This document shows positions 55,471-63,982 of a DNA stretch of 64,000 nucleotides, piece by piece. How positions within the stretch are numbered: the stretch's first letter is position 1; each line of letters opens with the position of its first letter. Both the position numbers and the translations under genes were made by a program. The DNA comes from Tepidibacter hydrothermalis (GTDB taxonomy: Bacteria > Bacillota > Clostridia > Peptostreptococcales > Peptostreptococcaceae): positions 930,001-994,000 of the forward strand of contig NZ_CP120733.1 of the NCBI RefSeq assembly GCF_029542625.1. The letters are read 5' to 3'. The notes under the pieces were generated by a model that ran no database searches, had not been told where the DNA came from, and was given only the letters and a program-made list of their open reading frames with translations.

Positions 55471-55499
55471 TCGACAATATTGTGCAAATATTGTATTAT
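55471..55499 (+). promoter_or_regulatory. Operon promoter with embedded 21-bp palindrome
   Basis: TCGACA (55471-55476) and TATTAT (55494-55499) with a 17-base spacer. Between them lies ACAATATT-GTGCA-AATATTGT (55474-55494), a perfect 8-bp-arm dyad that overlaps the end of the -35 box and the start of the -10 box. A repressor bound there would block polymerase. Confidence 0.6.
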
Positions 55500-55556: not shown

Positions 55557-56834
55557 ATGAAAAGACTATTTGCCATGGCTTTAATTTTAGTTATGACAGT
55601 ATCTGTTCTAGCAGGATGTGGTTCAACTTCTACTGAAAAATCAGAAGAAGCTACAAAAGAGTTAACTGTATGGTTACCGCCTATAGGGGAAAATGATAAA
55701 CCTGTTTGGGAGCCTATACTTAAAGAATTTGAAGAAAAAAATAATGTGAAAATTAATTTAGAAATAATACCATGGGAAGGATATCCTGAAAAATATGCAA
55801 CTGCAATTGCTGCAGGAGAAGGACCTGATGTTGGTTACATGTATGCAGAAATGTTCCCTCAATTCATAAAAATGGGAGCAGTTGAAGATTTAACAAATTA
55901 CTTAACAGAAAAAGATATGGAAAACTACATATACATAGATGATTGTAAAATGTTAGGTGGAATATATGGACTTGCTATAGAAGCTGCAAACCCAGCAGTT
56001 CTTTACTATAACAAAGATATATTAGCAGAACTTGGAGAAGAACCTCCAAAAACTTGGGAAGATTTTAGAAGAATAGCTAAAAAAGCAACAAAAGATACTG
56101 ATGGAGATGGAAAAATAGATCAATGGGGATTCTCTCAAGGTTGGGGAGCAAACTTCTTTGGAGATCTTAACTGGAACTGGTATGGATTTTTATGGCAAGC
56201 AGGTGGAGAACTTTATAACGATGACTTAAAAACTGTAAGATTTAATGATGAAGCAGGGTTAGAAACAGCTCAATTTTTATATGACCTTAAGTTTAAAGAT
56301 AAAGTAATTCCAGATAATGCAATGGCACAAAATAATAAAGAAATGTTACAAACTACATTTGGACCTGGAAAATCTGCATTTACAATCTGGCTTTCATCAG
56401 CAGCACATGAAATACTAGATAAGTCATTCCCAGATCTTAACTATGGATTTATTACTTCACTAGAAAATAAAGATATGGGAACATTTGCATCAGTTGATCA
56501 ATTAACTTTAATGTCAGCAACTGAAGATAAAGAATTATCATTTAAGTTAATGCAGCATATGCTAAGTGCTGATTCTATGACAAAATTCCATAAATATCAT
56601 CCAAGAGCTCCAATATCTAAAGATGAACCATATCAAGGAGATCCACAACTTAAAGAGATGATAGAAAATGATAAAGGAATATACAGACCATTAGTTGTAG
56701 CTCCTCACGGTGTTGAAGTGTATGACTACCTATGGAAGCAACTACAAAGAATGATGGTTGGAGAAGTAGAACCTAAAGAAGCTTTAGATGAAGCAGCTAA
56801 ATATGCAAATGATTTATTAGCAGAAGATCAGTAA
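55557..56834 (+). CDS. Sugar-type ABC transporter solute-binding lipoprotein
   Basis: A 425-aa family-1 extracellular solute-binding protein. Lipobox VLAGC (Cys21) anchors it to the membrane. Typical features are KELTVWLPPIGENDKPVWEP, FEEKNNVKINLEIIPWEGY and the TPEEW-like EEPPKTWEDFRRIAKK. A calcium-loop-like DTDGDGKIDQWGF (about 181-193) and several Trp in NWNWYGFLWQAGG suggest a carbohydrate or glycoside ligand. First gene of an eight-gene operon; a weak hairpin behind it probably gives it higher expression than the permeases. Confidence 0.88.
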   Translation: MKRLFAMALILVMTVSVLAGCGSTSTEKSEEATKELTVWLPPIGENDKPVWEPILKEFEEKNNVKINLEIIPWEGYPEKYATAIAAGEGPDVGYMYAEMFPQFIKMGAVEDLTNYLTEKDMENYIYIDDCKMLGGIYGLAIEAANPAVLYYNKDILAELGEEPPKTWEDFRRIAKKATKDTDGDGKIDQWGFSQGWGANFFGDLNWNWYGFLWQAGGELYNDDLKTVRFNDEAGLETAQFLYDLKFKDKVIPDNAMAQNNKEMLQTTFGPGKSAFTIWLSSAAHEILDKSFPDLNYGFITSLENKDMGTFASVDQLTLMSATEDKELSFKLMQHMLSADSMTKFHKYHPRAPISKDEPYQGDPQLKEMIENDKGIYRPLVVAPHGVEVYDYLWKQLQRMMVGEVEPKEALDEAAKYANDLLAEDQ

Positions 56835-56854
56835 TTTGGATAAATAATAATATG

Positions 56855-56890
56855 AAGCATCAAGAATATCTAATATTTTTGATGCTTTAT
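56855..56890 (+). terminator. Intra-operon hairpin after the binding-protein gene
   Basis: AAGCATCAA (56855-56863) with TTGATGCTT (56879-56887). The T run is short, which fits partial termination or mRNA-stabilising roles common behind binding-protein genes. Confidence 0.55.
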
Positions 56891-56985
56891 GTTTATATAG
56901 ATGAATTATTAGTTCAAAATCTATAGGATGTACTGTGGATTTTGAAGTGCTAATTTAAAAATTAGACTCAAAGAGGAGCTTTTTT

Positions 56986-57927
56986 ATGGAAGATATAATT
57001 TTAAAGAAAAATGAAGAATTAAAAAAATCTAGAGTTCGTACCTTTAATAAAAGAAAAATATTAAAAAAGTCTACGCCTTATACATACATACTTCCGATAG
57101 GGATATTATTATTAAGTTTTTATGTAATTCCAATAATAATGTCTATTTATTTTAGCTTTACAAAATACAATATAATGACACCTGCAAAATTCGTTGGATT
57201 TAAAAACTATTTAAATCTTGCTCAGGATAAGATGTTTATGGCATCACTTAAAAACACAATCATATACACAGTAGGTGTTGTACCACTTCAAACTTCAATA
57301 GCTTTATTAATGGCTGTATGGATAACTAAAAGAGAGAAAAGTAGACTAAATGAATTAGTTAAAGGAGCCATGTTTGTACCTGTAATATCTTCTATGATAC
57401 TTATTGGAATTATATGGAGAATATTTTTGAATGGAGAATTGTCACCACTTAATATGATTTTTACTTATGTAGGATTAAATACTCCTAATTGGATAGGGGA
57501 TACAAAACTTGCATTACCTACACTTATGGGGATATCAATATGGAAAAATGTAGGATACTTTATGGTTATATACATATCAGCTCTTATGGATATTCCAAAG
57601 AGTTATTATGAATCAGCCAGAGTTGATGGAGCTAATAAACTTCATGAATTCTTTTATATAACTGTACCACTTTTAAAACCTACTACTATAATGGTTGTTT
57701 TTCTAGGTTGTATATGGTCGCTTCAAACATTTGATCTCGTATATACATTAACAGGTGGAGGACCTGGGGTATCTACTATGACTATGGTACTTCATATATA
57801 TAATTTAGTTTTTAAACAATTTAGAGCTGGATATGCAATGGCTGTTGCAAATGTACTATTCCTTTTAATAGCCATTATATCAATATTTCAAAGAAAATTA
57901 CTTCAAAGGGATAAATCTATTTACTAA
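56986..57927 (+). CDS. Sugar ABC transporter permease (MalF/UgpA type)
   Basis: A 313-aa inner-membrane permease with six helices. The EAA loop ESARVDGANKLHEFFYITVP contacts the ATPase. N-terminal residues 1-30 are cytosolic and basic. It pairs with the next gene. No ATP-binding subunit is encoded in this operon, so a shared MsmK-type ATPase elsewhere is needed. Confidence 0.92.
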   Translation: MEDIILKKNEELKKSRVRTFNKRKILKKSTPYTYILPIGILLLSFYVIPIIMSIYFSFTKYNIMTPAKFVGFKNYLNLAQDKMFMASLKNTIIYTVGVVPLQTSIALLMAVWITKREKSRLNELVKGAMFVPVISSMILIGIIWRIFLNGELSPLNMIFTYVGLNTPNWIGDTKLALPTLMGISIWKNVGYFMVIYISALMDIPKSYYESARVDGANKLHEFFYITVPLLKPTTIMVVFLGCIWSLQTFDLVYTLTGGGPGVSTMTMVLHIYNLVFKQFRAGYAMAVANVLFLLIAIISIFQRKLLQRDKSIY

Positions 57928-57941
57928 AAAGGAGGGACTAT

Positions 57942-58751
57942 ATGAAAAGCATAAAAAGAATAATTGGAAATATAATCTTACTTATGATTGCAAGTTGTAT
58001 GATAGTTCCTTTTGTATATATGGTAATAACATCTTTTAAGATTACATATACAGCGTACAATTTCGATTTTTCTTTATCAGATATAACTTTACAAAACTAC
58101 ATAACTATAATTAGAGATACTAATTTTGTGCATTATTTTTTGAACAGTTTATTTATAGCTATATCAGGTGTCGTATTAAATGTACTATTTAGTAGTTTAG
58201 CTGGATTTGCTTTTGCCAAAAAGGAGTTTCCTGGGAATGAAAAATTATTTTTCTTTATGATTATGACACTTATAATACCTTCTCAAGTAACAATGATTCC
58301 TCTTTATATAATAATGAGACAATTAGGATGGATTAATAGCTATTTTGCGCTTATACTTCCAATACCAACTGCTTTTGGAGTGTTTTTAATGAGACAAGCA
58401 ATACTTAATATACCTAATGATTTAATAGATTCAGCTAGAATAGATGGTTGTTCTGACATTAGGATATTTTTTCAAATAGTAGTTCCTTTAATAAAACCTG
58501 CAATAATAACACTTACTATATTTACATTTATAGGTGCATGGAATGAATTTTTATGGCCGCTAATCGTTACAACTAATGATTCTGTTAGAACATTGACAGT
58601 TGGCCTTTCAAGCTTAAATGCTCAATATACTGTTAATTATGGGTTAGTTATGGCTGGATCTACATTAACCTTTTTACCATCTTTTATAATTTATTTGATT
58701 TTGCAAAAACGATTCGTAGAAGGAGTTACTCTTTCTGGAATAAAAGGATAA
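57942..58751 (+). CDS. Sugar ABC transporter permease (MalG/UgpE type)
   Basis: A 269-aa second permease with six helices; EAA loop DSARIDGCSDIRIFFQIVVP; end FVEGVTLSGIKG is typical of this subfamily. AGGAGGG site, 14 bases behind the first permease. Together with the binding lipoprotein it makes a CUT1-type importer for oligosaccharides or glycosides. Confidence 0.92.
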   Translation: MKSIKRIIGNIILLMIASCMIVPFVYMVITSFKITYTAYNFDFSLSDITLQNYITIIRDTNFVHYFLNSLFIAISGVVLNVLFSSLAGFAFAKKEFPGNEKLFFFMIMTLIIPSQVTMIPLYIIMRQLGWINSYFALILPIPTAFGVFLMRQAILNIPNDLIDSARIDGCSDIRIFFQIVVPLIKPAIITLTIFTFIGAWNEFLWPLIVTTNDSVRTLTVGLSSLNAQYTVNYGLVMAGSTLTFLPSFIIYLILQKRFVEGVTLSGIKG

Positions 58752-58764
58752 GGGAGTGATTAAT

Positions 58765-60498
58765 TTGAATTTTGACATGAAACTATATGATTCATCTACA
58801 AAGCATATAAGAGGACAAGAAGAAAACTTAATAGAAATGAATCGAGAAATTGATATTTTAAGACAAGAAGAATTCGGATTTCAAATTCTAATAAATTCAG
58901 ATAAAGAGTACTTTTGTCAGTTAGGAAAAACCAATGATATTCATTGGAAAGGGTTAGGAGATAAAATTCGTTTAGAATTAGATATAGATGAGAATTTAAG
59001 AGAATATTTTAAAATAAAATTTTTAGGATATGTAAAAGATGATATGAGAAATTTAGTAGCAGATCCTATACTAGATAAAAAGTCTTTGTATATACAAGAA
59101 GATTATCAGATGATTTGGGTAGAAGGTGAAATTCCTGAAAATTATAATAAAGAAACTATAAAAGTAAAAATTAAAGCTTTTTACTCTAAGGAATACGATA
59201 GAGAAAAATTAGTAGCAGAAAAAGAGTTAGAAATTAAAGTAATAGATTATACATTAAAACCAATAAAAGAAGGAGAATTTTTTCTGGATTTATGGCAGCA
59301 TCTGTGCAATTGGGCAAGAGTGTATGATGTAGAATATTTTTCAGATGAACATTTTGAGATAATAGATAACTATATAAAAGACTTGAGTAATCTAGGGCAA
59401 AGAGTTATAGACCTTGTAGTTACAGATTATTCATGGGCTGGTCAAAGATGCTTTGAAGTCGATGAAAACTTTTCGAATTTATTTGAGATGAACATTGTAA
59501 AGGTATTTAAGAATAGGGAAGGTAAAATACAATGTGATTTTTCTTCATTAGATAGATACATAGAGACATGTTTTAAACATGGAATAAAACAAGAGATTAA
59601 CTTATTTGGACTAATAGGAAATTGGGATGCTTTTTTATTTGGGAATCCTGTAAAAGAACATAAAGATGCTTTAAGAGTTATATATTATGATGAAAACGAT
59701 GGGTGTTTTGATTATATAAAAAATAAGGAAGAATTAAAAGATTACTTATCATTAATTTTTAATCATCTTGTAGATATGAAATTATGGGATAAGGTAAAAG
59801 TGATGAGTGATGAACCTGATAATGCTCAAATATTTAAAGAATGCTCTGATTTTATGCAATCAGCTATACCAGAATATGAAATAAAATATAAATGTGCAAT
59901 ACATAACCAGGAGTTTTTTGATAAACATGGAGATAATATAGAATCACTATCACTTAGTACATGTGAAATTGTAAATAATATAGACACTATAAAAGAACTA
60001 AAAAAAGAAGTAGATAAAAGAGGCGGAGTTTTAACTTGGTATTCATGCTGTTTTCCAGAAAAACTGAATATATTCTTAAAATCACCTTTAATAGAAAGTA
60101 GACTTAAAGGATGGTTTACTTATTATTTTGAGGTTGATGGATTTTTAAGATGGGCATATGGGATATGGCCTGGAAATGTTTTTGAAGATGTAAGTTATAA
60201 ATATCCTAGATGGACTGCGGGAGACATGTTCTTTGTATATCCAGGGAAAAATTTAAAGCCTATGCATAGTGTAAGATATAAGAATTTTTTATTTGGAATA
60301 CAAGATTTTGATATATTTAGAGAAATAGAGAAAAAAGGAATATTGAAAGATGAAATTTTAAATCAAATACAGAATCTTTTAGGAAGTAAAGAAGATATGA
60401 GAGCTTTGCCTGAAAGAAAAGTAAAAATGGATTATTCACTAGATTATAACAAATATAATGAATTGAGAAATAAACTTGTAGAAAAATATTTAGTTTAA
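58765..60498 (+). CDS. GH123/DUF4091-like glycoside hydrolase family protein
   Basis: A 577-aa cytosolic protein (no signal peptide). The N-terminal beta domain (about 1-165) is followed by a DUF4091/GH123-like barrel: FFLDLWQHLCNWARVYDVEYF, VVTDYSWAGQRCF, then KVMSDEPDN (about 350), whose D-E pair matches the catalytic position in GH123 beta-N-acetylgalactosaminidases, and C-terminal RWTAGDMFFVYPG. It probably trims the imported glycoside inside the cell. GGGAG at 58752-58756 supports the TTG at 58765 over the GTG at 58756. Confidence 0.72.
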   Translation: MNFDMKLYDSSTKHIRGQEENLIEMNREIDILRQEEFGFQILINSDKEYFCQLGKTNDIHWKGLGDKIRLELDIDENLREYFKIKFLGYVKDDMRNLVADPILDKKSLYIQEDYQMIWVEGEIPENYNKETIKVKIKAFYSKEYDREKLVAEKELEIKVIDYTLKPIKEGEFFLDLWQHLCNWARVYDVEYFSDEHFEIIDNYIKDLSNLGQRVIDLVVTDYSWAGQRCFEVDENFSNLFEMNIVKVFKNREGKIQCDFSSLDRYIETCFKHGIKQEINLFGLIGNWDAFLFGNPVKEHKDALRVIYYDENDGCFDYIKNKEELKDYLSLIFNHLVDMKLWDKVKVMSDEPDNAQIFKECSDFMQSAIPEYEIKYKCAIHNQEFFDKHGDNIESLSLSTCEIVNNIDTIKELKKEVDKRGGVLTWYSCCFPEKLNIFLKSPLIESRLKGWFTYYFEVDGFLRWAYGIWPGNVFEDVSYKYPRWTAGDMFFVYPGKNLKPMHSVRYKNFLFGIQDFDIFREIEKKGILKDEILNQIQNLLGSKEDMRALPERKVKMDYSLDYNKYNELRNKLVEKYLV

Positions 60499-60510
60499 AG
60501 GGTGATAAAA

Positions 60511-61635
60511 TTGTTAAAGCCTGATAGTGCAAAAATAGAAGAATTTGAAGATGTTATAAAGCTTATAAATAAAGTTTTTAGAGTATCTAGGGGATATAAT
60601 CCTACTATGCAACAGGAATTTCCGCTACTTCTCAATAAAGATAATATAAACAATATGATTGTTATAAAAGAAAATGGGAAAATAGTATCAGATGTGAATT
60701 ACTTAATTCAAGATGTACTTATACAAGGCATAAACATAAAAGTTGCATCAATAGGTGCTGTTTGTACTGACCCTGAGCACGAGGGAAAAAGATATTCATC
60801 AAAAATCTTAGATAAAGTAGAAGAAAAGATGCACGATGATGGTGTCGATATAGTTTTAATATCAGGAGATAGAAGCTTATATACAAGAAGAATGTGTAGC
60901 AAGGTTAAGAATTTCTATAAATATACTTTAATGCCTAAAGATATCTCATTAAATATAGACATAGAAGAATATGATGAAAAATATAAAAAAGAAATGATAC
61001 AAATTTACAATCAAAACTCTACTAGATATTTTAGAACAAGAGAACAGTTTGAGATATTATTAAAATCTGCTACAGTTCCTTGGGGTAACTATACATACAA
61101 AAAATTGGTAATAAGAAAAGATGATAAGTTAATTGGATATATGATTATAAGAATAATAGATAACGAAGAAAAAAAGCTAGGACAAATTATAGAATTAAAT
61201 TTACCATGTAATTATGTACATGATACTATTTCTTATCTTGCATATAAATATGATTTAAATTATTTAGATTATTGGGTACATGTAAAAGATTATAAAAATC
61301 ATATAGAAAAATACGACGAAGTCTGTATTGACTACTTACATGGAACTATAAAGATTATAAATTATGAAAAAATGTGTAAAAGCTTATATAACTATTTTAT
61401 TCAATATGCAGATAAGAAGGTTTTGGATAACATTGAGTTTAAAGAATTAAGTGGAAAATATCTAATTAAATATAAAGATGAAGAGCTCTTGATAGAAGAT
61501 GTAGAATGTCTAAATAAATTATTTTTCGAAGGGAAAATTAGAGAAGATTTAAGTAAAAAGCCTAATATTGAAAAATTTATAAAAAATGTATTCCCGATAA
61601 ATTTTGTATGGCCAGCTAATCTTAACTATCAATAA
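60511..61635 (+). CDS. GNAT acetyltransferase, Eis-like
   Basis: A 374-aa protein. The N-terminal GNAT domain (about 1-150) has the acetyl-CoA region VASIGAVCTDPEHEGKRYSS and ISGDRSLYTRRMCSKV. A second, weaker GNAT-like part and a C-terminal tail (NVFPINFVWPANLNYQ) follow, as in Eis-type enzymes. Substrate unknown. Within this operon, acetylation of an amino sugar or of the imported compound is conceivable. AAAGGGTG favours the TTG at 60511; the GTG at 60502 sits inside that site. Confidence 0.68.
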   Translation: MLKPDSAKIEEFEDVIKLINKVFRVSRGYNPTMQQEFPLLLNKDNINNMIVIKENGKIVSDVNYLIQDVLIQGINIKVASIGAVCTDPEHEGKRYSSKILDKVEEKMHDDGVDIVLISGDRSLYTRRMCSKVKNFYKYTLMPKDISLNIDIEEYDEKYKKEMIQIYNQNSTRYFRTREQFEILLKSATVPWGNYTYKKLVIRKDDKLIGYMIIRIIDNEEKKLGQIIELNLPCNYVHDTISYLAYKYDLNYLDYWVHVKDYKNHIEKYDEVCIDYLHGTIKIINYEKMCKSLYNYFIQYADKKVLDNIEFKELSGKYLIKYKDEELLIEDVECLNKLFFEGKIREDLSKKPNIEKFIKNVFPINFVWPANLNYQ

Positions 61636-61650
61636 TAAGGGGGATATTGT

Positions 61651-62319
61651 GTGAATGATGTATTAGAAAAAATATCAGATTGTATAGTAAATATGGAAGA
61701 ATCAAGTATTGAAAATTTAATTGAAAAAGCTTTAAACTGTGATGATATAAATATAGATGATATTTATTCTAAGGGATTAAATTCGGGAATGAATAAAGCT
61801 ATAGAACTATTTGAAAACAAAGAGTATTATATACCAGAGGTTATAGTTTGTGCAGATACTCTAAATAAAGGCCTTGAAGTATTAAGAGCTTATGGAAAAA
61901 TAAATAAAAAAAGTAAGGGAAAAGTAGTTTTTGCTGTAGTTAAAGGTGATACCCATGAAATAGGTAAAAATATTGTGAAAATTATGCTTGAAGCTGCTGG
62001 GTATGAAGTTATAGATCTTGGAGTAAACATAGATAATAAAGATATAATAGATTCAGCTATAAAGGAAGAGGCTCAAGTTATAGCAGTTTCTTCTATGATG
62101 ACGACTACTATGACTGAAATGAAAATACTAATAGAACAGTTAAATAGTATTAATATTAAAAATAAGCCATATGTAATTATTGGTGGAGGTTGTATAACCA
62201 AAAACTATGCTGTAGAAATAGGTGCTGATGGATATTCTGAAAATGCTCCAAAAGCAGTAAAGCTTGTAGCACGTTTGATTGAGGAGGGAAAAGATGACTT
62301 TATTAGAGTATATAAATAG
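61651..62319 (+). CDS. Corrinoid (B12-binding) protein, MtaC/MtbC type
   Basis: A 222-aa protein with the standard two domains. A helical cap (about 5-85, KGLNSGMNKAIELFENKEYY, then IPEVIVCADTLNKGL) precedes the Rossmann B12 domain (about 90-215) with KGDTHEIGKN, whose His is the cobalt ligand (DxHxxG), plus SSMMTTTMTEMK and VIIGGGC. It carries methyl groups between a substrate and an acceptor. It starts with GTG after AAGGGGG. Its end overlaps the next gene by 26 bases, indicating matched production. Confidence 0.92.
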   Translation: MNDVLEKISDCIVNMEESSIENLIEKALNCDDINIDDIYSKGLNSGMNKAIELFENKEYYIPEVIVCADTLNKGLEVLRAYGKINKKSKGKVVFAVVKGDTHEIGKNIVKIMLEAAGYEVIDLGVNIDNKDIIDSAIKEEAQVIAVSSMMTTTMTEMKILIEQLNSINIKNKPYVIIGGGCITKNYAVEIGADGYSENAPKAVKLVARLIEEGKDDFIRVYK

Positions 62320-63295
62320 TGAGGATAGAGGATTTTTTCTTCCTGATATGGCTACTAATGGATTGTTTTTAACTAATTATAAAGCTTATGATATTTATGA
62401 AAATCCAAATAATCAACTAGAAATGGCCAAGGTTATGGATGAAACATTTGAGTCGGATTTTATATATTCATTTTGTGATGGGATAATTTTTTGTGAAACA
62501 TTGGGACTTGATATATTAAAGTCTGATTATGACTTTCCAAGTGTATTGAATCATCCAATAACAGATATAGAAATATTAAGTAAATGTGAGGTTCCAGACC
62601 CTTATAAAACTGGTAGAATGCCTGTTAATATTGAAAGTCTGACATTAATAGCAAATAATATAAAAAAACCATTGTACGTTTCTATACAAGGACCATTTAC
62701 ACTAGCTATACAGCTTGCAGGAGCTACTCATCTTTTGAGAAGTATAATAACGGATCCTGAATTTGTAGAAAAACTATTAGAGTTTACTACAGAAACTGTG
62801 AGAAGGTATAGTGTGGCGGTCAATAAAGCAGGCGCTAAACTTATATCTATATCAGAACCAGCAGCTGTTACATTAAATCCAGAAAGATTTGATAAATATG
62901 TTGTACCTAATGTAGAGAAAATATATAAAGAATTAACTTGTTGGAAGAGTATGCACATATGTGGAGATACATCTTATATATTAGATAATATGTTGAGTTG
63001 TAGTATAGATGCTATAAGTTTGGATCAAATCATGAATTATGAAGATGTAAAACATAGAATACCCGATGATATTGTGCTGATAGGAAATCTTGATCCTATA
63101 GAACTTTTAGGAAGAGGAAAACCAGAGGATATAAGAAAAGAAACTATAAAATTGATGAAGATTATGAGGGAGAATAACAATTATTTATGTGCTTTTGGCT
63201 GTAATTGCTTAAATGATACACCAGTAGAAAATCTACAAAGTGCAATTAAAACAGGCAGAATGGCTTATAAAGAATTAGATAGTATTCATTTATAG
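62294..63295 (+). CDS. UroD-family corrinoid methyltransferase (MtaA/MtbA-like)
   Basis: A 333-aa (beta/alpha)8 protein of the uroporphyrinogen decarboxylase superfamily. The zinc-type motif of methyltransferases is present: SMHICGDTSYIL (His-x-Cys) and FGCNCLNDTPVENL (Cys). True HemE residues are lacking. Members move methyl groups to or from corrinoid proteins. Here it could demethylate the substrate or pass the methyl on to a thiol or folate. A TTG at 62279 is in frame, but GAGGAGGG points to the ATG at 62294. Confidence 0.85.
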   Translation: MTLLEYINSEDRGFFLPDMATNGLFLTNYKAYDIYENPNNQLEMAKVMDETFESDFIYSFCDGIIFCETLGLDILKSDYDFPSVLNHPITDIEILSKCEVPDPYKTGRMPVNIESLTLIANNIKKPLYVSIQGPFTLAIQLAGATHLLRSIITDPEFVEKLLEFTTETVRRYSVAVNKAGAKLISISEPAAVTLNPERFDKYVVPNVEKIYKELTCWKSMHICGDTSYILDNMLSCSIDAISLDQIMNYEDVKHRIPDDIVLIGNLDPIELLGRGKPEDIRKETIKLMKIMRENNNYLCAFGCNCLNDTPVENLQSAIKTGRMAYKELDSIHL

Positions 63296-63309
63296 TTAGG
63301 AGATATACA

Positions 63310-63945
63310 ATGGAAAGCATTTATAAAGTTTATATAGATAAAAATAAGGTATTGAAATTCCTAGGTTACTCTAAGAGAAAACCTTCAGAAATTATACTCA
63401 GAAAAATTGATGAAGAATGTGATATAGCAGATAAATTTATAAAACCACAGGTGTCATTAAAGCAGTTTGAAATAAATCATGATAACAATCAAATTACTAT
63501 TGCAGATAAATATGTTCTTAAAGGAAAATATGCTTTTGATAGGTTAAAAGACTGTAAAAATATTTATATAGCACTGTATACAATAGGAACAGATATAGAG
63601 GAAAGAATAAAATACTATACTAATAATAATGAAATGATAAGAGGTATGGTATTAGATAAAATAGGTATAGTTGCACTAGATTATATAAATGATAAAATTA
63701 AATATAATATTTTAAATCAAATACCGGGATTAAAAATATCTTCAGAAATATACCCAGGGGAAAGTGACTTTGATGTATCAAACCAAAAAATTATATTCGA
63801 TTTATTGAAAAATGAAAATAGTAATATCAGAATAAATGAACATTATCAATTATTCCCTATAAAAACTGTAGGAGTTATATTTGGAGTAGGATTAAAGGAT
63901 AATAATATAGGTCGATGTGATAATTGTAAAAATAAATGTTATTAA
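63310..63945 (+). CDS. MetH activation-domain-like protein
   Basis: A 211-aa protein resembling the cobalamin-dependent methionine synthase activation domain: GYSKRKPSEIILRKIDEE, IYIALYTIGTDIEERI, MVLDKIGIVALDYINDKI, then SEIYPGESDFDVSNQKIIFDLL and QLFPIKTVGVIFGVG. A Cys triad ends the protein (GRCDNCKNKCY). In MetH this domain binds SAM for reductive remethylation of cob(II)alamin. A stand-alone version beside a corrinoid protein probably reactivates it; the Cys triad could bind a metal or cluster. TAGGAGA site; last gene of the operon. Confidence 0.78.
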   Translation: MESIYKVYIDKNKVLKFLGYSKRKPSEIILRKIDEECDIADKFIKPQVSLKQFEINHDNNQITIADKYVLKGKYAFDRLKDCKNIYIALYTIGTDIEERIKYYTNNNEMIRGMVLDKIGIVALDYINDKIKYNILNQIPGLKISSEIYPGESDFDVSNQKIIFDLLKNENSNIRINEHYQLFPIKTVGVIFGVGLKDNNIGRCDNCKNKCY

Positions 63946-63982
63946 AAACGGCATTAGATAGTATCTAGTGCTGTTTTTAATA
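63944..63982 (+). terminator. Terminator of the corrinoid operon
   Basis: AAAAACGGCATTAGATA (63944-63960) pairs with 63962-63978, with two G-T pairs, and a T run. It overlaps the last stop codon. Confidence 0.85.

Follow-up and report, generated by a model that had tools for sequence, protein, structure and literature searches.

What would an operon gain by joining a sugar-type importer, a glycoside hydrolase and a set of proteins for corrinoid-dependent methyl transfer? The question is raised by positions 55557-63945 (+ strand) of a window of 64,000 nucleotides from Tepidibacter hydrothermalis, which is the whole stretch of DNA that was analysed. Eight genes follow one another there, encoding a CUT1-type binding protein, two permeases, a GH123 glycosidase, a GNAT acetyltransferase, a corrinoid protein (Corr), an MtaA-like methyltransferase of the UroD superfamily, and a homolog of the MetH activation domain, called Act hereafter. 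A sequence-only reading had listed these eight same-strand genes and postulated that importer, glycosidase and corrinoid proteins work together on an O-methylated sugar. All eight genes are present, seven of them assigned by Pfam/NCBIfam and the eighth through its homology to structure 1j6r, and the coupling is supported by the genome comparisons given below, while the O-methyl substrate is disfavoured. The answer tentatively preferred here, with confidence somewhat short of even, is a catabolic scavenging operon, by which a beta-N-acetylhexosaminide would be imported and cleaved and the methylthiol or methylselenol so released would be demethylated onto the corrinoid protein.

That importer, GH123 and corrinoid methyl transfer are functionally coupled is supported by their distribution in 247 genomes of the host's order. 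UroD relatives occur in 17 of these genomes at E<=1e-60, 16 of them at E<=1e-100. The named relatives that carry UroD are C. difficile strains, Oceanirhabdus seepicola, a Gallicola metagenome-assembled genome, Peptoclostridium litorale and 'Lutibacter sp. B2'. GH123 is found in all 16 genomes with UroD (E<=1e-100) and in 7/231 without it (Fisher p=4e-20); at the genus level it accompanies UroD in 8/8 cases, compared with 11/121 overall (p=2e-10), neither p value being corrected for relatedness. Moreover, the sugar half of the system is tied to its methyl half by two fusions: GH123 and the corrinoid protein form a single 798-residue protein with no intervening stop in G194, where the gene adjoins UroD, and GH123 is fused to GNAT in a 945-residue protein of G189, away from the methyl half.

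Gene order, by which the sequence-only reading had proposed to judge this coupling, is conserved in part. The exact eight-gene operon recurs in one congener (G240), and the contiguous core GH123-GNAT-Corr-UroD-Act is found in five genomes; G101 and G061 have a CUT2-type importer before it, and O. seepicola has none at the locus. GH123-Corr-UroD-Act is preceded in G209 by a CUT1 importer of another kind and in Gallicola by no importer. The halves are split in C. difficile, P. litorale and G189: the methyl locus reads GNAT-Corr-UroD-Act in the C. difficile group and CUT2-Corr-UroD-Act in G189, and separate sugar loci, consisting of the genes for the solute-binding protein, both permeases and GH123, are present in C. 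difficile and, with GNAT before GH123, in P. litorale. Wherever a genome of the order lacks GH123 beside the methyl half, a GH123 ortholog sits elsewhere in that genome. Seven genomes have GH123 only, retaining importer genes and/or GNAT beside it, and the methyl half is never found without GH123 within the order, so that the methyl half probably acts downstream.

The chemistry of the methyl half is suggested by its methyltransferase. The UroD gene (62294..63295, + strand; URO-D E=6e-53) starts at ATG 62294, not TTG 62279, and its product is matched by MtaA (4ay7) at E=2e-20, with 25% identity across 253 aligned residues, the threshold for membership among the S/Se corrinoid methyltransferases (SCMT/Mlp-like) being >25% identity to a characterised SCMT. 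The zinc ligands of MtaA align with His221, Cys223 and Cys303, the predicted zinc site, and His-Cys-Cys is kept in 12/12 orthologs checked, neither Cys position being taken by a carboxylate or non-coordinating residue. In this superfamily, His-Cys-Cys is the set of S-methyltransferases, which act on sulfur or selenium, whereas O-demethylases swap Cys for a carboxylate or a non-coordinating residue, and the His-Cys-Cys enzyme ClMlp2 acts with selenide (PMC10418091). Because of this conserved site, the atom from which the enzyme takes its methyl group is likely to be S or Se rather than O. The top structural match of the UroD model (pLDDT 88) is also 4ay7 (Z=35.1, rmsd 2.3 over 320 residues), which exceeds UROD itself by 1 Z only, and the fold alone therefore leaves the function undecided. 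The partner corrinoid protein (61651..62319, + strand) contains B12-binding_2 (PF02607) and B12-binding (PF02310) domains and the DxHxxG motif in the form GDTHEIG; it is MtbC/MtgC-like at E about 1e-44 to 1e-47, but under the family cut-offs.

The nature of the sugar is suggested by the glycosidase (58756..60498, + strand; GH123_cat E=2.5e-85), whose catalytic domain scores 287 bits against a curated cut-off of 23 and which is matched by structures 5l7v and 5fqe at E about 1e-26 and 1e-22, respectively. It retains the DE pair D352-E353 plus Y429, G462, W466, Y495 and R507. In beta-N-acetylgalactosaminidases the last five of these residues do not vary from group to group, and either activity or stability depends on them; the 2-acetamido group of the substrate assists catalysis by these enzymes (PMC11087588). 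The window enzyme is thus probably a beta-N-acetyl-galactosaminidase/hexosaminidase. No signal sequence is seen at its N-terminus (MINLNFDMKLYDSSTKHIRG), and its substrate is therefore expected to be a compound taken up by the cell; this cytoplasmic character, together with the interchangeable CUT1 and CUT2 importers, points to a small ligand. The adjacent gene (60502..61635, + strand) encodes an Eis-like tandem GNAT N-acetyltransferase (Acetyltransf_9 E=7e-22), of which the AlphaFold2 model (pLDDT 72.8) resembles the Eis-type GNATs 2ozg, 3n7z and 3ryo (Foldseek E 1e-16 to 1e-13). Eis-like GNATs are known for amine acetylation, and the GNAT-GH123 fusion of G189 suggests that this enzyme acts on the same sugar as GH123.

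The last gene (63310..63945, + strand) encodes Act, a protein of 211 residues with no Pfam match and with homology to the Thermotoga TM0269 structure 1j6r over 150 residues (E=4.5e-9). The SAM-binding signature of the MetH activation domain (SAM, S-adenosylmethionine) is RxxPGY; it is lost in 9/9 module Act proteins, the window protein reading EIYPGE, whereas the split-MetH activation protein of the same genome retains it. All nine have three C-terminal cysteines (C-x2-C-x3-C in the window protein), a feature in common with the split-MetH version. Act is a probable corrinoid reductive activator, and no RACE-like gene is present in the operon or in the 10 kb downstream of it. Calling the corrinoid module complete, as had been done from the letters alone, was an overstatement, since the operon has neither a RACE/Ram activase nor a corrinoid:folate methyltransferase. 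No folate methyltransferase lies within 20 kb of the operon, and the four Pterin_bind places of the genome are all >800 kb away. Several possible methyl acceptor enzymes are encoded elsewhere in the host genome, where, outside the examined stretches, genes were sought by family only. An MttB-like gene adjoins a corrinoid gene at one place (L067:5596-7870), and a corrinoid gene stands with an MtrH-like gene and a RACE-like activase at another (L065:5269-8832); these systems could supply the folate methyltransferase.

Taken together, an N-acetyl-requiring hydrolase, a fused acetyltransferase, a soft-metal demethylase and a fused corrinoid protein make a beta-linked amino-sugar glycoside with an S- or Se-methyl aglycone the simplest substrate. 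In the proposed pathway, a small amino-sugar glycoside would be taken up whole and, if its amino group is free, N-acetylated by the Eis-like GNAT. Cytoplasmic GH123, aided by the 2-acetamido group, would then release N-acetylhexosamine and methanethiol or methylselenol. The thiolate-type zinc site of UroD would bind the soft S or Se atom and hand its methyl on to the Co(I) form of the corrinoid protein, leaving free sulfide or selenide. Act, acting without SAM, would re-reduce cobalt after oxidation, and the methyl group would enter one-carbon metabolism by way of a methyltransferase whose gene lies outside the operon.

Several observations weigh against this pathway. The cleavage step is putative for GH123, thioglycosides being known as substrates of acetamido-assisted hexosaminidases such as O-GlcNAcase. 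GNAT is absent beside GH123 in two loci (L031 and L048). UroD shares only ~25% identity with its nearest counterpart in the host's own cluster that resembles an mlp gene cluster. MtaA and other second-step enzymes, which have thiols as acceptors, also carry His-Cys-Cys zinc sites, and UroD could accordingly be acceptor-side. In addition, Act-Corr-UroD occurs in G999, which does not belong to the order and has no GH123; the rule that the methyl half always comes with GH123 (16/16 in the order) breaks down there.

The main rival to a donor-side UroD is built on such an acceptor-side role. UroD would be the second enzyme, moving the methyl group from the corrinoid protein to a thiol (homocysteine, sulfide or another), and the first transfer would be made by another protein, perhaps the GH123-like barrel. 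The closest solved relative of UroD, MtaA, is a thiol-acceptor enzyme, the order GH123-Corr-UroD resembles MtaB-MtaC-MtaA, and the GH123-corrinoid fusion is also in favour of this reading. However, GH123 keeps its hydrolase residues and, in seven genomes, occurs with importer and/or GNAT but without UroD, by which the idea of the barrel itself as a methyl-transferring enzyme is weakened; UroD, Corr and Act occur without GH123 in G999; and the loci conserve no separate first methyltransferase. An acceptor-side UroD is accordingly regarded as unlikely.

More improbable is the substrate originally postulated, an O-methyl sugar or methyl O-glycoside that would be imported and hydrolysed, after which UroD would transfer the O-methyl group of the sugar, or the methyl of the methanol set free, to the corrinoid protein. 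In its favour, a single operon combines an importer of sugar type with a glycosidase and a corrinoid protein, and the host genome looks like that of an acetogen able to use methyl groups. The His-Cys-Cys ligands of all 12 orthologs, unlike those of O-demethylases (PMC10418091), speak against it, as does the operon's lack of an MtaB-type methanol enzyme and of a folate methyltransferase. An O-type cousin may nevertheless exist: in another family of the phylum (G569), sugar-oxidoreductase-like genes are followed (L069, 4686-11059) by consecutive genes for a CUT1 importer and for distant relatives of UroD and GH123 (the latter 33% identical), and Asp replaces the first zinc Cys of this UroD, an internal contrast to the His-Cys-Cys orthologs. 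This locus is possibly the O-methyl-sugar counterpart of the module. Equally improbable is that the two halves share regulation only, for instance in the use of host amino-sugar glycans, with no common substrate, for although they lie apart from each other in C. difficile, P. litorale and G189 and the sugar half stands alone in seven genomes, one protein fuses GH123 to the corrinoid protein and UroD depends one-way on GH123 at the genome level within the order.

For the donor-side pathway, the best natural substrate fit appears to be 1beta-methylseleno-N-acetyl-D-galactosamine, the mammalian urinary selenosugar and main urinary selenium compound (PMC5372522, PMC9953619), because its structure is that of a beta-linked N-acetyl amino sugar with a methyl-Se aglycone. 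The volatility of methylselenol would favour channelling. The methylthio analogue is equally allowed by the data. A full selenium-recovery pathway, in which the selenosugar (and its amino form, to be acetylated by GNAT) would be imported, GH123 would release methylselenol, corrinoid demethylation would yield selenide for SelD, and the MetH-type activator would work free of SAM, is held to be doubtful. All 15 complete genomes of the order that carry the module have selD, and so do 3/3 others; selB is present as well. Against it, selD is found in 160/210 (76%) complete genomes of the order and is nearly universal in the family, and no selenium gene adjoins the operon. The selenium trait is thus unconvincing as a discriminator (15/15 versus 160/210, p about 0.014 uncorrected for relatedness), and since selD is common in the order and confounded by relatedness, the selenium link is weak.

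Among known systems, the type 1 mlp gene clusters (Kountz & Balskus, PMC10418091) are alike in having an MtaA-like His-Cys-Cys UroD and a monomeric corrinoid protein, in lacking a folate methyltransferase, and in belonging to anaerobic Bacillota; the operon agrees with this definition in that it encodes a corrinoid protein and lies more than 20 kb from any folate methyltransferase gene. It differs in encoding one UroD, whereas those clusters have two or three Mlps (Mlp2 and Mlp3 at least), and in having only the MetH-activation homolog in place of their RACE/Ram activase; importer, GH123, GNAT and the SAM-less homolog are additions to the set. The same genome also has, at another place, a cluster similar to the type 1 mlp gene clusters (L066:7053-15119; C1:762053-770119), with genes for UroD, a permease, a corrinoid protein, another UroD, a RACE-like activase, a CobW-like GTPase and a short UroD-like protein. 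The methylcobamide:coenzyme M methyltransferases MtaA, MtbA and MtsA share the fold, the zinc ligands and a corrinoid partner with the module UroD, which is only ~25% identical to them, bacterial, glycosidase-linked and likely on the donor side, not that of coenzyme M methylation. MtvB, OdmB, VdmB, MtoB, CdmB and CmuA, O-demethylases and haloalkane enzymes, likewise pair a UroD-superfamily enzyme with a corrinoid protein; these systems typically include folate methyltransferases and ATP-dependent activators, neither of which is in the operon, and, in contrast to His-Cys-Cys, the O-demethylases have carboxylate ligands and CdmB is zinc-independent (PMC10418091, PMC13222342). The GH123/DUF4091 beta-N-acetylgalactosaminidases CpNga123 and BvGH123 resemble the module enzyme in their catalytic DE pair and in the conserved residues Y, G, W, Y and R; the module enzyme differs in lacking a signal sequence and in having a corrinoid protein or GNAT as its partner or fusion domain. 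CUT1 importers, GH123 enzymes and systems of corrinoid protein and UroD are all known already, and their conserved, fused combination is apparently new: the literature searched, of which coverage was partial, contained nothing on a glycosidase linked to a corrinoid demethylase, on GH123 with corrinoid proteins or any methyl-transfer partner, on an activator without the SAM motif, or on bacterial catabolism of the selenosugar.

The importer consists of an extracellular solute-binding lipoprotein (55557..56834; SBP_bac_1 PF01547 E=2.7e-34) and two permeases (56986..57927 and 57942..58751; BPD_transp_1 PF00528 E=1.2e-17 and 1.1e-20, respectively), all on the + strand, a combination that identifies it as CUT1. 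The closest solved binding proteins, 5ci5 and an arabino-oligosaccharide-binding protein (E about 1e-23), are too distant for a ligand to be named from sequence. Orthologs of the binding protein, 60-97% identical, share an operon with GH123 in eight other loci. No gene for a MalK-type ATPase is among the operon's genes; an ABC (ATP-binding cassette) ATPase gene adjoins GH123 in P. litorale. The importer type is exchangeable among loci, being CUT2, another CUT1, or none at the locus.

From the first permease gene onward, intergenic gaps are -26 to +15 nt, neighbouring genes either overlapping or being separated by 3-15 nt, with a clear ribosome-binding site at most starts. Transcription from one promoter to one terminator had been proposed, and both ends were borne out to the extent of a putative promoter-like site (TCGACA-17-TATTAT, 55471..55499, + strand, from a sequence scan) within an upstream block conserved in the congeners G240 and G195, and a strong intrinsic terminator (63940..63982, + strand; 20-bp stem, T-rich tail) followed by a convergent gene. 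The unit contains a strong hairpin (within 56840..56900, + strand; 21-bp stem, -22.5 kcal/mol) between the genes for the binding protein and the first permease, which are 151 nt apart; the hairpin is likely to serve transcript processing or attenuation, so that transcript levels may differ across it. An Rfam scan of the operon and its upstream region gave no element at gathering score. The upstream MarR-type gene was ruled out as a member of the system, as it is not found upstream in G240.

Related loci showed further features. In a C. difficile strain (G093; L037:7868-11784), the module corrinoid gene is interrupted by an insertion with an open reading frame of 614 aa, a putative group II intron maturase/reverse transcriptase. 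A NifH/NifDK-like reductase and an iron/cobalamin-type ABC transporter are encoded a few kb from GNAT-Corr-UroD-Act at L032:1857-7919 and similar loci of C. difficile relatives; reductases of this type have been linked to methyl-sulfur metabolism (PMC10418091). G150 (L042:369-8160) has another importer-linked corrinoid system, in which a CUT1-like importer accompanies a corrinoid protein and two UroD genes and GH123 is absent.

The host, whose genome of 4.16 Mb contains acs and CODH genes (identities read by eye from the sequence), is on that ground a probable acetogen. The proposal predicts a corrinoid reductive activator that is derived from the MetH activation domain and independent of SAM. 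If true, it would provide a route by which anaerobes, including gut-associated C. difficile relatives and acetogens, gain methylated sulfur or selenium from sugar conjugates, and if the substrate is the selenosugar, it would explain what anaerobic bacteria do with the main form in which mammals excrete selenium.

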